Shown: in pieces, positions 18,209-21,139 of the stretch
How positions within the stretch are numbered: position 1 is the stretch's first letter
Layout of the letters: every line of letters starts with the position of its first letter
Assembly (NCBI GenBank): GCA_021163775.1
Contig: JAGGTI010000087.1
Coordinates: 1 to 42,186 of the forward strand
Origin: Candidatus Zixiibacteriota bacterium
GTDB lineage: Bacteria; Zixibacteria; MSB-5A5; GN15; FEB-12
Length of the DNA: 42,186 bases
Reading direction: 5' to 3'
Notes under the pieces: generated by a model
Told to the model about the DNA's origin: nothing
The model's input: only the letters and a program-made list of their open reading frames with translations
Database searches by the model: none
Program-made: the position numbers and the translations under genes

Positions 18209-18705
18209 TTTTCACTGACAATAAGTTCATAGGATGGCCGGGTCACTTGACTCGGCCATTTGAATATGCGGTCAAGAAGTTCGTGGTGTATGTCATCGTA
18301 TGGCGCAATCAAATGACAGTCTGCCGTATACATAAGATTCTTGCAGGGCGGAACCCCTTGGTGGTTCCGCCATTTTGTAGGCGGCATGATTTGTGAGTTG
18401 CAGACGCCCTCGACGGCAGAACCGCTAAAGGGTTCTGCCCTACGCAAGAAGAAGTCAACTGAGAACAGTAGGTCACGCCTACTTTCCGTCACATCCGCGC
18501 AGGCGGATGCCTATGTCTACTCGCGTCCCTGAAAAGCAGTCAAGAATCAGTCTGAAACTTTGCTCCAATGCGGATCAACATCTGTTCTGCAAAGATTGGT
18601 GGTCATAGATTCCCGTCTGCACGGAAATGACGAAGGGGAATACTTTCAGGCGCAGACGAGGGCGTCTGCCGCCCACAAAACCCGTCCATGCGAGAATATA
18701 ACCAA
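18209..18705. other. Palindrome-rich non-coding region
   Basis: This 497-base gap has no credible gene. It contains at least seven hairpins: 18234-18259 (ATGGCCG/CGGCCAT, a possible weak terminator for the metalloprotease), 18347-18371, 18415-18439, 18467-18483 (AGTAGG/CCTACT), 18492-18509 (CATCCGC/GCGGATG), 18610-18627 (TTCCCGT/ACGGAAA) and 18652-18669 (GCAGACG/CGTCTGC). A 13-mer, GCAGACGCCCTCG at 18400-18412, recurs inverted at 18657-18669. It looks like an accumulation site for short palindromic repeats. Confidence 0.7.
18343..18443. repeat. REPIN-like pair of inverted GYAGGG palindromes, element 1
   Basis: A plus-oriented palindrome at 18343-18371 (GCAGGG, then stem GGCGGAACC/GGTTCCGCC) faces a minus-oriented copy at 18415-18443 (stem GGCAGAACC/GGTTCTGCC, ending CCCTAC). 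By hand, 23 of 29 bases match, and one difference is a compensated stem pair (G-C to A-T). Confidence 0.65.
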
Positions 18706-19617
18706 TCACTCCGCAACATCTATAGAGTGTATCTTCGGTTTGCCGCCTCGGCCGAGGACACCGTTTTCATCGGCCGTTTCGTAGAAATACTTGATGTAAT
18801 TCCAGGCATCAACCGCCTTGTCGGCATAGACGAACAGCTTGATATCCTCAGGCGCAATCGTCCCCTGTTCCACCAAGTAATCGAAATCGATCAACCCTTT
18901 CCAGAACTTCTCGCCAAAAAGTATGATCGGCAACGGACGGACTTTTTTCGTCTGAACCAGAGTAAGACCTTCAAACAACTCGTCCATTGTACCGTAACCG
19001 CCGGGAAAGGCCAACAATGCTTTGGCTCTCAGCAGAAAGTGCATTTTGCGGATCGCAAAATAGTGGAACTGAAAACAAAGCTCCGGCGTGATATACGCGT
19101 TGGGTTCTTGTTCCATCGGCAGAGTGATGTTTAGTCCGATCGATTTCGCGTCCACGTCATGCGCACCCCGGTTGGCCGCCTCCATGACTCCCGGGCCGCC
19201 ACCGGTGACGATCACATACTCGTGGTCGTGATGATCCTGACATTCCGACGATACCAACCGCGAAAACTCACGGGCTTCGTTGTAGTACCCCGACTTTTCG
19301 AGGATAGAGCGGGCGATGCGCAGATCGCGTTTCAGCGTAGTGTCACCCGGTTTCTTTTTTAGTCGAACCTCAGCCCGCTTGACCGCTTTCCTGGCTTCGG
19401 CTGGTTCCACTATTCTGGTTCCACCGAACACAACAATAGTCGACCTGATTCTGTTGAGGCGCAACCCGATTTCAGCCTTCAATTGCTCCAATTGTAACCG
19501 AGCCGGTCGGGCAAAGCCAGAGTCAAGAAATTCCATGTCCTTATAGGCAACGCGGTATGCCTTTGAGCGCTTCAATCGGGCTATAGCCTTCTCTTTATCA
19601 AACTTCTTTTTCGCCAT
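18706..19617 (-). CDS. LOG family protein (putative nucleoside 5'-monophosphate phosphoribohydrolase)
   Basis: The Rossmann core carries the two LOG signatures GGGPGVMEA (139-147) and PGGYGTMDE (205-213), which in characterised members bind and split nucleoside monophosphates into base and ribose 5-phosphate. At 303 residues it is longer than the smallest LOG proteins, with an N-terminal, lysine-rich helical extension of about 55 residues (MAKKKFDKEKAIARLKRSKA). The ATG at 19617 has AGGAA about 7 bases upstream. It lies 19 bases downstream of the beta-CASP hydrolase and probably forms an operon with it. The cellular role (nucleotide turnover) is inferred from the family. Confidence 0.88.
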   Translation of the reverse strand: MAKKKFDKEKAIARLKRSKAYRVAYKDMEFLDSGFARPARLQLEQLKAEIGLRLNRIRSTIVVFGGTRIVEPAEARKAVKRAEVRLKKKPGDTTLKRDLRIARSILEKSGYYNEAREFSRLVSSECQDHHDHEYVIVTGGGPGVMEAANRGAHDVDAKSIGLNITLPMEQEPNAYITPELCFQFHYFAIRKMHFLLRAKALLAFPGGYGTMDELFEGLTLVQTKKVRPLPIILFGEKFWKGLIDFDYLVEQGTIAPEDIKLFVYADKAVDAWNYIKYFYETADENGVLGRGGKPKIHSIDVAE

Positions 19618-19636
19618 TCTCTATTCCTATGTTATT

Positions 19637-21019
19637 CTAAAGTTCAACTGTTTCTCCAAGTTTCGGGATGTGACAATCCCAGCCACGCTCCTCTTTGAGA
19701 TGCCCTGCCATCGCTTCCGCCTGATCCAGTTCACCATGCGTCACGAAAACCCGACGAGGAGCCTCGGTTACCGGCTCCAACCAGTGAAGTATCTCATAGA
19801 AATCGGCATGACCGGACAGACCGTGCATCGTAATCACCTCGGCGTTCACCTTGACTACCTGCTTGTGAATACGTAACTCGGTCGCCCCTTCGGCCAGAAG
19901 TCGACCGCGGGTGCCGGTAGCCATGTAGCCCACCAGCGCCACGGTGGTGTTCTTGTCCGGTAGCCGTTGCATCAGATGGTGCATGATGCGCCCTCCGGTC
20001 AGCATACCACTTGATGACAGGATTACCGCCGGTCCCTTCAGACGGTTCAGCTTCTTTGACGACTCCCGTTTCCTATGCAAAAAAACATTACATCCACCAA
20101 GAATACAGTTCTCCCCGACTAAGTTCTCAATGTCGATCTCGTGAAAGTCGTGGAACTTGGTGTAAACATCGGTAACCGATACCGCCATCGGTGAATCGAT
20201 ATGAATATCGACTCGTGGTATCAGCTCGTGACGCATCAGTTCATTGAGCAAATAGGTGATCTGCTGAGTGCGACCGATGGCAAAAGCCGGAATAAGCAGT
20301 ACACTCTTCCGTTCGACAATCTGGTTGATTATATCGATAAACATCGCCCTCGGGTCTTCCGGTTCGTGCAGGCGTCCGCCGTAGGTCGATTCACACACCA
20401 GGTAGTCGCAGGTTGGCGGTTCAGCCGGATCAATAGTCAGCGGGTTACCATAGCGACCGACATCACCGGAAAACAGAATCGACACCTTGCGACCGTTTTC
20501 GCGAATCTCCACCTCCACTGCGGCGGCACCCAGGATGTGACCGACAACATGATACCGGATTCGTATACCTTGACAGCAATCCTGCCAGCGAGAGTACGGC
20601 GTCGGTTTGATATAGCTGAGCGCTTCTTTGGCGTTTTCGACGGTATAGAGAGGTAGAGCTTTCTTGTGCCGCGTAATCTTTTTCTTATTGCGCCAAGCGG
20701 CATCTTCTTCCTGAATCGAGGCGCTGTCAATCAGCGAGATGTTGATCAGATCGGAGGTGGGCCCGGTAGCAAATACTTCACCCCGAAAGCCATGCCTGAC
20801 CAGGCGCGGCAGGTAACCCATATGATCGATATGAGCGTGCGTTAAAACTACGGCCGAAACCGAGGCCGGATCAAATGAAGGATCCTCCCAGTTGAGTTGC
20901 CGTAAGTGTCCCGGTCCCTGAAAGAGACCGCAGTCGACCAAAATCTTCTGGCCGTTTGCTTCCACGAGATACTTGGACCCTGTGACTGTTTCAGCGGCAC
21001 CATAAAATGAAATCTGCAT
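19637..21019 (-). CDS. MBL-fold beta-CASP hydrolase, RNA-processing type
   Basis: The metallo-beta-lactamase motif 2 is complete: H61-A-H63-I-D65-H66, with the motif-1 strand ILVDCGLFQG just before it and LFSGDVGRYGNPL (motif 4) later. A beta-CASP cap with IPAFAIGRTQQ and the RMMBL-type C-terminus (TMHGLSGHADFYEIL, VFVTHGELDQAEAMA) place it with RNA endo/exonucleases of the CPSF-73/YSH1-like bacterial group. Length is 460 residues from the ATG at 21019; a TTG one codon earlier is also possible. AGGT lies 7-8 bases upstream. It is followed by the LOG gene at 19 bases, and pfkA lies upstream across a gap carrying a palindromic repeat pair. Function: cytosolic RNA cleavage, inferred from the family. 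Confidence 0.9.
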   Translation of the reverse strand: MQISFYGAAETVTGSKYLVEANGQKILVDCGLFQGPGHLRQLNWEDPSFDPASVSAVVLTHAHIDHMGYLPRLVRHGFRGEVFATGPTSDLINISLIDSASIQEEDAAWRNKKKITRHKKALPLYTVENAKEALSYIKPTPYSRWQDCCQGIRIRYHVVGHILGAAAVEVEIRENGRKVSILFSGDVGRYGNPLTIDPAEPPTCDYLVCESTYGGRLHEPEDPRAMFIDIINQIVERKSVLLIPAFAIGRTQQITYLLNELMRHELIPRVDIHIDSPMAVSVTDVYTKFHDFHEIDIENLVGENCILGGCNVFLHRKRESSKKLNRLKGPAVILSSSGMLTGGRIMHHLMQRLPDKNTTVALVGYMATGTRGRLLAEGATELRIHKQVVKVNAEVITMHGLSGHADFYEILHWLEPVTEAPRRVFVTHGELDQAEAMAGHLKEERGWDCHIPKLGETVEL

Positions 21020-21061
21020 CAATCAACCTGTTTCCTATATGTGAAGGCTTTCAGCCACCCT

Positions 21062-21139
21062 GTAGGGCAGGTCTTTTTTTGGTGTCTTCAAACCTGCCAT
21101 TTTTCCCAAGAGGCGGATTCGAAAACGGATCCACCCTGC
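21062..21139. repeat. REPIN-like pair of inverted GYAGGG palindromes, element 2
   Basis: Between pfkA and the beta-CASP gene, GTAGGG (21062-21067) opens a hairpin with stem GGCAGGT (21066-21072) and ACCTGCC (21092-21098). A second, oppositely oriented hairpin pairs GGCGGAT (21112-21118) with ATCCACC (21129-21135), one wobble pair included, and ends CCCTGC at 21139. The architecture matches the element at 18343-18443: GYAGGG outside, CCCTRC at the other end. It could also act as an attenuator between the two genes. Confidence 0.55.

Follow-up and report, generated by a model that had tools for sequence, protein, structure and literature searches.

GTAG-tagged REP hairpins in a Candidatus Zixiibacteriota genome: a pile-up of probable singlets, a dispersed inverted doublet, and the RAYT lineages that go with them

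Two intergenic elements, at positions 18343-18443 and 21062-21139 of a 42,186-nucleotide stretch of Candidatus Zixiibacteriota DNA (hereafter the window), each pair a plus-oriented hairpin with a minus-oriented one, and they raise the question of whether such pairs are REP doublets (REPINs) moved by a RAYT transposase or hairpins selected as RNA. The MAG to which the window belongs, as contig C11, comprises 2.37 Mb in 130 contigs and is 77% complete. The first element lies between two convergent genes, an 887-aa gene on the plus strand and a LOG gene on the minus strand, and the gene order 887-aa gene - LOG - MBL - PFK is conserved in much of the family. An Rfam scan of the window returned no matches. 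The features discussed here are the following.

18234..18259, plus strand: hairpin immediately 3' of the 887-aa gene
18343..18371, plus strand: REP, most likely a singlet, of the GGYGGAACC subfamily, with GCAG tag, 9-bp stem and 7-nt loop, GCAG+GGCGGAACC(CCTTGGT)GGTTCCGCC
18390..18412, plus strand: truncated GTGG-tagged REP (GTGGGCGGCAGACGCCCTCGTCTGCC) of the family that flanks the RAYT on contig C22
18415..18443, minus strand: REP, most likely a singlet, of the GGCAGAACC subfamily, with GTAG tag, 9-bp stem and 7-nt loop, GTAG+GGCAGAACC(CTTTAGC)GGTTCTGCC
18468..18483, plus strand: truncated REP of the GTAGGTCACGCCTACTCGGGGCGTGAC family (also written GTAGGTCACGCC), which has intact copies elsewhere
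18652..18679, minus strand: nearly complete GTGG-tagged REP of the C22 RAYT family
21062..21098, plus strand: left arm of the second element, GTAG+GGCAGGT..ACCTGCC, with a loop longer than the consensus
21099..21111, no strand: doublet spacer, similar across other copies (ATTCCCC..AAAA)
21112..21139, minus strand: right arm of the second element, GCAG+GGTGGATCCG..CGAATCCGCC

The hairpins of the first element are as the preliminary description had them: both 9-bp stems are perfect, both loops have 7 nt, GYAG stands outside (GCAG at the left end of the element, CTAC at the right), and the arms are identical at 23 of 29 bases. The GTAG-bearing strand of the GGCAGAACC type, tag included, reads GTAGGGCAGAACC..GGTTCTGCC. 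Simple arithmetic gives an expectation of about 0.02 perfect GYAG+9-bp hairpins in the window, against 2 observed; a Markov shuffle gave a mean of 0.29, a figure that is too high through an end-of-sequence artefact.

The arms are not confined to the window. The pattern GGCRGAACC-N7-GGTTCYGCC, with up to 3 mismatches, has 66 sites genome-wide, and 30 bases of the 18415..18443 arm have a 100% copy at C8:37238-37267. The arm is carried by 38 of 98 relatives, and exact matches to the arm pattern across GTDB species fall mostly in Candidatus Zixiibacteriota. Searching with the left half only, so that pairing was not used, retrieved 60 copies on many contigs, in 38 of which the right half is present with no more than 1 mismatch. 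Within a 416-kb sample, itself enriched for REP copies, GYAG heads 54 hairpins, compared with 3-23 for each of seven other tetranucleotide heads, and the many stem types found behind the GYAG tag in the sample include GGCRGAACC, GTCGGAACC, GTCGAAACC, GTCACGCC, GTCGGGCC, GTCAGGTTGC and GGCAGGCC. Tags among the 60 copies are GTxx in 46 and GCxx in 14 (the tag being part of the search pattern), and at the flanks of RAYT genes they are GTAG in 141 cases and GCAG in 5. The arms therefore combine the marks of GTAG-tagged REPs, a GYAG tag before a short palindrome and many dispersed copies. That they are a product of chance, or a purely local inverted repeat or duplication, is extremely improbable: the reversed pattern has no match, either in this genome (against the 66 sites) or among the relatives (against the 38), and we found no support for this reading. 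Two copies (L051 and L054; rows 3064 and 12481, reverse strand) share the extra bases AACCAACCTGTGGTTG at the loop edge, which form a hairpin within the hairpin.

One stem position had been described as covarying between the two arms, changing from G-C to A-T on both sides. Among the copies found by the left half only, 27 carry G-C and 8 carry A-T at stem pair 4, and therefore the double change is real but marks the difference between two genome-wide subfamilies. The same copies have two A-T pairs at stem pair 5, one reversed G-C at stem pair 8 and a T-G wobble at stem pair 3 in 13 cases. One RAYT of a relative (L104) lies between a GGCAGAACC REP on its upstream side and a GGCGGAACC REP on its downstream side.

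The kind of transposase that the preliminary description had in mind is present in this genome, which contains six intact RAYT genes above the NF047646 cut-off, two of them identical, plus a truncated seventh (NF047646/PF01797). Of the five distinct intact RAYTs, four are each bracketed by clear copies, in inverted orientation, of a hairpin family of their own (GTGGGCGGCAGACG on C22, GTGCCCGGCAGATG on C61, GGTAGCCCACAGC on C86 and TGCCCCATCCGC on C29), and the RAYT on C17 has only a shorter shared repeat. The window's arm type is not among the hairpin families flanking these intact genes. It occurs 13 bp past the stop codon of the truncated RAYT on C52, on the 3' side only; this fragment has no HxH motif and falls below the NF047646 cut-off. 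No intact cognate (GGCRGA-clade) RAYT was found in the 77% complete genome. Because the cognate RAYT remains only as a C-terminal fragment, the window's arm population has probably stopped spreading, unless the quarter of the genome that the assembly lacks holds an intact RAYT. On C86 (L052), 1.8 kb separates the two identical RAYT genes, each of which is enclosed by GGTAGCCCACAGCTTGCTGTGGGTT repeats in a neighbourhood of TPR-like genes; on C29 (L053), the flanking hairpin CCCCACCGCAAGCGGATGGGGCACC downstream of the RAYT stands in a tandem array together with about 200 surrounding bases.

Homologues of the C52 fragment, queried with its 83 C-terminal residues, occur in 82 of the 98 relatives. 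At 117 loci with a RAYT match, a GYAG hairpin is found upstream in 90, downstream in 74 and on both sides in 64, and for labelled C52-type RAYTs the downstream hairpin lies a median of 11 nt from the stop. Intact RAYTs of the C52 clade in the relatives have GTAG+GGCRGAACC hairpins on both sides, so that the cognate RAYT is flanked there by the repeat of the window, while in the genome of the window the truncated RAYT keeps the one 3' copy. Conversely, loci fetched by the arm pattern alone yielded 5 RAYTs, all of them with a C52-type best match and all abutting a REP. A tree of 81 C52-type RAYTs places the GGCRGA stems in a clade of 11 rows that includes the fragment of our genome (SH-aLRT 96), with one GGCAGA row (L122) lying outside it. 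A GTCGAA clade has 27 rows (SH-aLRT 97) and also contains four GTCGGA rows and one GCCAAG row, and a GTCGGG clade has 17 rows (SH-aLRT 99), with one CTCGGG and one GTCAGT. The six-base stem label changes 21 times on this tree, whereas 200 shuffles averaged 50.8 changes and never gave fewer than 45; therefore the arm family of the window belongs to one RAYT clade, which in the window genome is represented by the fragment without the catalytic HuH part. The enzymes align with E. coli TnpA-REP (PDB 4ER8; E 2e-27). Of 87 labelled RAYTs, 85 have the HxH motif and 79 the Y..NP motif, and Gly-Glu/Asp forms the C-terminal end of 86 out of 88. In 111 of 135 RAYT-flanking REPs, the final base of the stem together with its 3' neighbour is CA (89) or CT (22).

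We regard the arms at 18343-18443 as very probably GTAG-tagged REPs, that is, non-autonomous single-strand mobile hairpins dispersed via a HuH/Y1 RAYT (TnpA-REP). The suggestion that a RAYT moved them is strongly supported by the copy number, the GTAG tag, the RAYTs with matched inverted REPs, the correspondence of clade and stem, and the turnover at the site described below. By homology with the TnpA-REP enzymes of E. coli and Marinomonas, the RAYT would bind the folded GTAG-bearing strand, read the tag and the foot of the stem, and cut at CA/CT dinucleotides beside the hairpin, after which REP copies would be pasted into intergenic DNA. Gly160 and Glu161 in the C-terminal tail of E. coli TnpA-REP contact GTAG, and the cleavage sites are CT for this enzyme and both CT and CA for that of Marinomonas (PMC8266576). 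We would like to note that the GCAG tag of the 18343-18371 arm counts against the REP-RAYT reading, since cleavage was strongly reduced with a GCAG tag variant in the Stenotrophomonas system (PMC8266576).

Whether the hairpins also move as pairs has a different answer for each element. At 21062-21139 the REPIN reading holds: BLAST finds both arms and the spacer recurring jointly at five other places (C52, C103, C2 and twice on C76), with a further copy of this type, its left arm damaged, on C104. The element is a member of a second, dispersed inverted-doublet family, with the aligned unit GTAGGGCAGGTCTGTCTTCAAACCTGCCATTCCCC.AAAAGGCGGATTCGAAGACGGATCCGCCCTAC, and a true REPIN-like unit. Its right arm is an imperfect hairpin on the minus strand (GCAG+GGTGGAT..ATCCGCC), and its stems are poorer than those of 18343-18443 and different from them. 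Since the inner stems are unlike, only the GYAG-outside arrangement of the common design proposed earlier is left to the two elements, and that single design merges a pairing of singlets (18343-18443) with a true inverted-doublet family (21062-21139).

It could still be argued that 18343-18443 is itself a REPIN, moved whole as an inverted doublet whose spacer later diverged or was overwritten; its arms are oriented heads-out, an arrangement also seen around RAYT genes, and the doublet nearby is a real unit. Nevertheless, BLAST of the doublet against the genome gave 46 matches, none of which besides the element itself covers both arms, the arms come from two subfamilies that each have independent copies, and about half of the spacer is filled by the truncated REP at 18390-18412, which belongs to another RAYT family. 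Among neighbouring REPs up to 120 bp apart in the sampled stretches, 12 pairs are tandem, 7 heads-out (including one case in which a lone palindrome, tagged at both ends, was counted twice) and 2 heads-in, which is near the 2:1:1 expected for random orientation and, in a number as small as about 20 pairs, shows no clear excess of inverted orientation. We consider this origin quite unlikely, and without a second arm-to-arm copy or a clear orientation excess the REPIN label had to be withdrawn for 18343-18443, which is most likely two REP singlets of two subfamilies, inserted separately within a pile-up.

The intergenic region that holds the singlets, 497 bp between the 887-aa gene and LOG, is a REP pile-up of at least three families. 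The orthologous region of a same-genus genome is 286 bp long with REPs of other kinds, that of G020 is occupied by still different REPs, and in G012, G013 and G024 it has no REPs and a terminator-like hairpin alone is left; REPs have thus turned over at this site, relatives having other REPs or none. The hairpin at 18234..18259 is probably the terminator of the 887-aa gene rather than a REP, because relatives without REPs retain a hairpin there. The position between convergent genes would also suit hairpins that are kept, whatever their origin, as RNA elements such as a bidirectional terminator or a 3'-end stabiliser, and so would the stem pairs that vary with pairing retained, the frequent T-G wobble, and the RNA role suggested in other species for REPs downstream of genes (PMC3733652). 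However, relatives keep the separate hairpin near the 887-aa gene and not the REPs, and the 60 copies have no conserved T run (U-tract) 3' of the stem: T is common only at +2 after the stem (46 of 60) and stands at +3 in 32 of 60, so that the G+C-rich hairpin followed by a T run of an intrinsic terminator does not appear. A reading as RNA elements, which also leaves the GTAG tag and the RAYT link in need of another explanation, strikes us as unlikely, and selection for an RNA hairpin is not needed to account for 18343-18443. The pile-up between the 887-aa gene and LOG is replaced in many relatives (L244, L247-L250 and L252-L254) by a gene of about 190 codons that, judged by eye, resembles a nitroreductase.

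Taken as a case of RAYT-dispersed REPs, the element in the window is unremarkable; earlier work already describes GTAG REPs, subfamilies that differ by complementary stem changes, multiple families per genome and RAYT flanking (PMC3733652, PMC3686654). Similar to the GTAG REP families and REPtrons of PMC3733652, those found here have a GYAG tag, 6-9-bp stems, subfamilies arising by complementary changes, several families per genome and repeat-flanked RAYTs. The hosts of GTAG repeats named in that paper are Proteobacteria, Cyanobacteria, Chloroflexi and the PVC group, and the present host, Candidatus Zixiibacteriota, is not among them; the paper also gives GTAG-outside (HH) dimers as usual and tandem (HT) ones as rare, whereas here neighbours in tandem are no less frequent than GTAG-outside ones. 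The REPINs of Pseudomonas fluorescens (PMC3116915) are likewise inverted REP doublets in a genome with a RAYT, and 21062-21139 resembles them in being dispersed with a similar spacer in each copy, but 18343-18443 is not repeated as a doublet and the two arms of the 21062 family have different stems. E. coli TnpA-REP (4ER8; PMC8266576) shares with our system a homologous RAYT, the Gly-Glu/Asp end, the GTAG tag and CA/CT at the stem end. In contrast to E. coli REPs, in which a bulge is required, the stems here, as read from sequence, are perfect palindromes, a feature ascribed to group 3 (PMC8266576). The REP classes of Pseudomonas and Stenotrophomonas (PMC3686654) also number several per genome, each with a cognate RAYT, and deviations from this pairing were explained there by RAYT loss; in comparison, the correspondence of RAYT clade and stem is traced here over many genera and several families. 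A search of open-access literature, which is weak evidence, found nothing joining Zixibacteria with REPs or a tyrosine transposase. The present data add the little-studied phylum Candidatus Zixiibacteriota to the known range of GTAG REPs and RAYTs, and over about 80 RAYT-REP pairs the stem varies together with the lineage of the enzyme.

The choice of a REP by its RAYT is only partly understood, three systems having been studied (PMC8266576), and the pairs collected here (RAYTs at L101-L130, L295-L354 and L392-L424, residues numbered as in L117) point to a place to look. The alignment column that best tracks stem base pair 2 (GTAG-GGC versus GTAG-GTC) is residue 5, the next column being far weaker. 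Arg occupies residue 5 in 66 of the 69 GT-type RAYTs and in 1 of the 21 GG-type ones, the contrasting residues being Leu/Ile/Lys, and each of the 16 GG-type RAYTs in the first set has Lys at residue 3. The residue-5 rule was derived from 78 RAYTs and checked against 15 fetched afterwards, with REPs assigned by eye, and 14 of these 15 agree with it, the miss being the divergent L418. Held-out RAYTs with stems starting in C fall beyond the GG/GT contrast and were therefore not counted; of these, L399 (Arg5, stem CGC) would go against the rule and L435 (Arg5, stem CTC) would agree with it. An independent-pairs test counted 7 switches, only 2 of them on well-supported branches, so that significance was unreachable. 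The association is strong, yet it is compatible with common descent, because the single-gene tree offers only two well-supported independent switches. With somewhat less than even confidence, we propose that residue 5, helped by residue 3 (Asn/Ser/Thr versus Lys), may select REP stem pair 2 (T-A versus G-C), so that RAYT lineages of Zixiibacteriota and relatives would switch REP population through these residues while GTAG stays fixed, a putative N-terminal specificity code. This natural RAYT-REP series, and especially the association of residue 5 with pair 2, makes REP choice testable by oligonucleotide cleavage.

The arm type also appears outside the phylum. A Calditrichaeota CLD4 MAG has it with identical loops (CTTTAGT/CTTTAGC; L135, L139, L146 and L155) and has RAYTs as well, and Methylococcales matches have the head and stem in common with the arm and a different loop. 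Such sharing across phyla may reflect shared descent, transfer, convergence or MAG contamination. Short palindromic repeats are, besides, very abundant in the genome of the window: a dispersed palindrome without a GTAG tag, ATTCCCGACTNCTCGGGAATGACG, lies at 18611-18634 and at many other loci (L025, L016 and L027 among them), and CATCCGCCTTCGCGGATG is a second dispersed palindrome.
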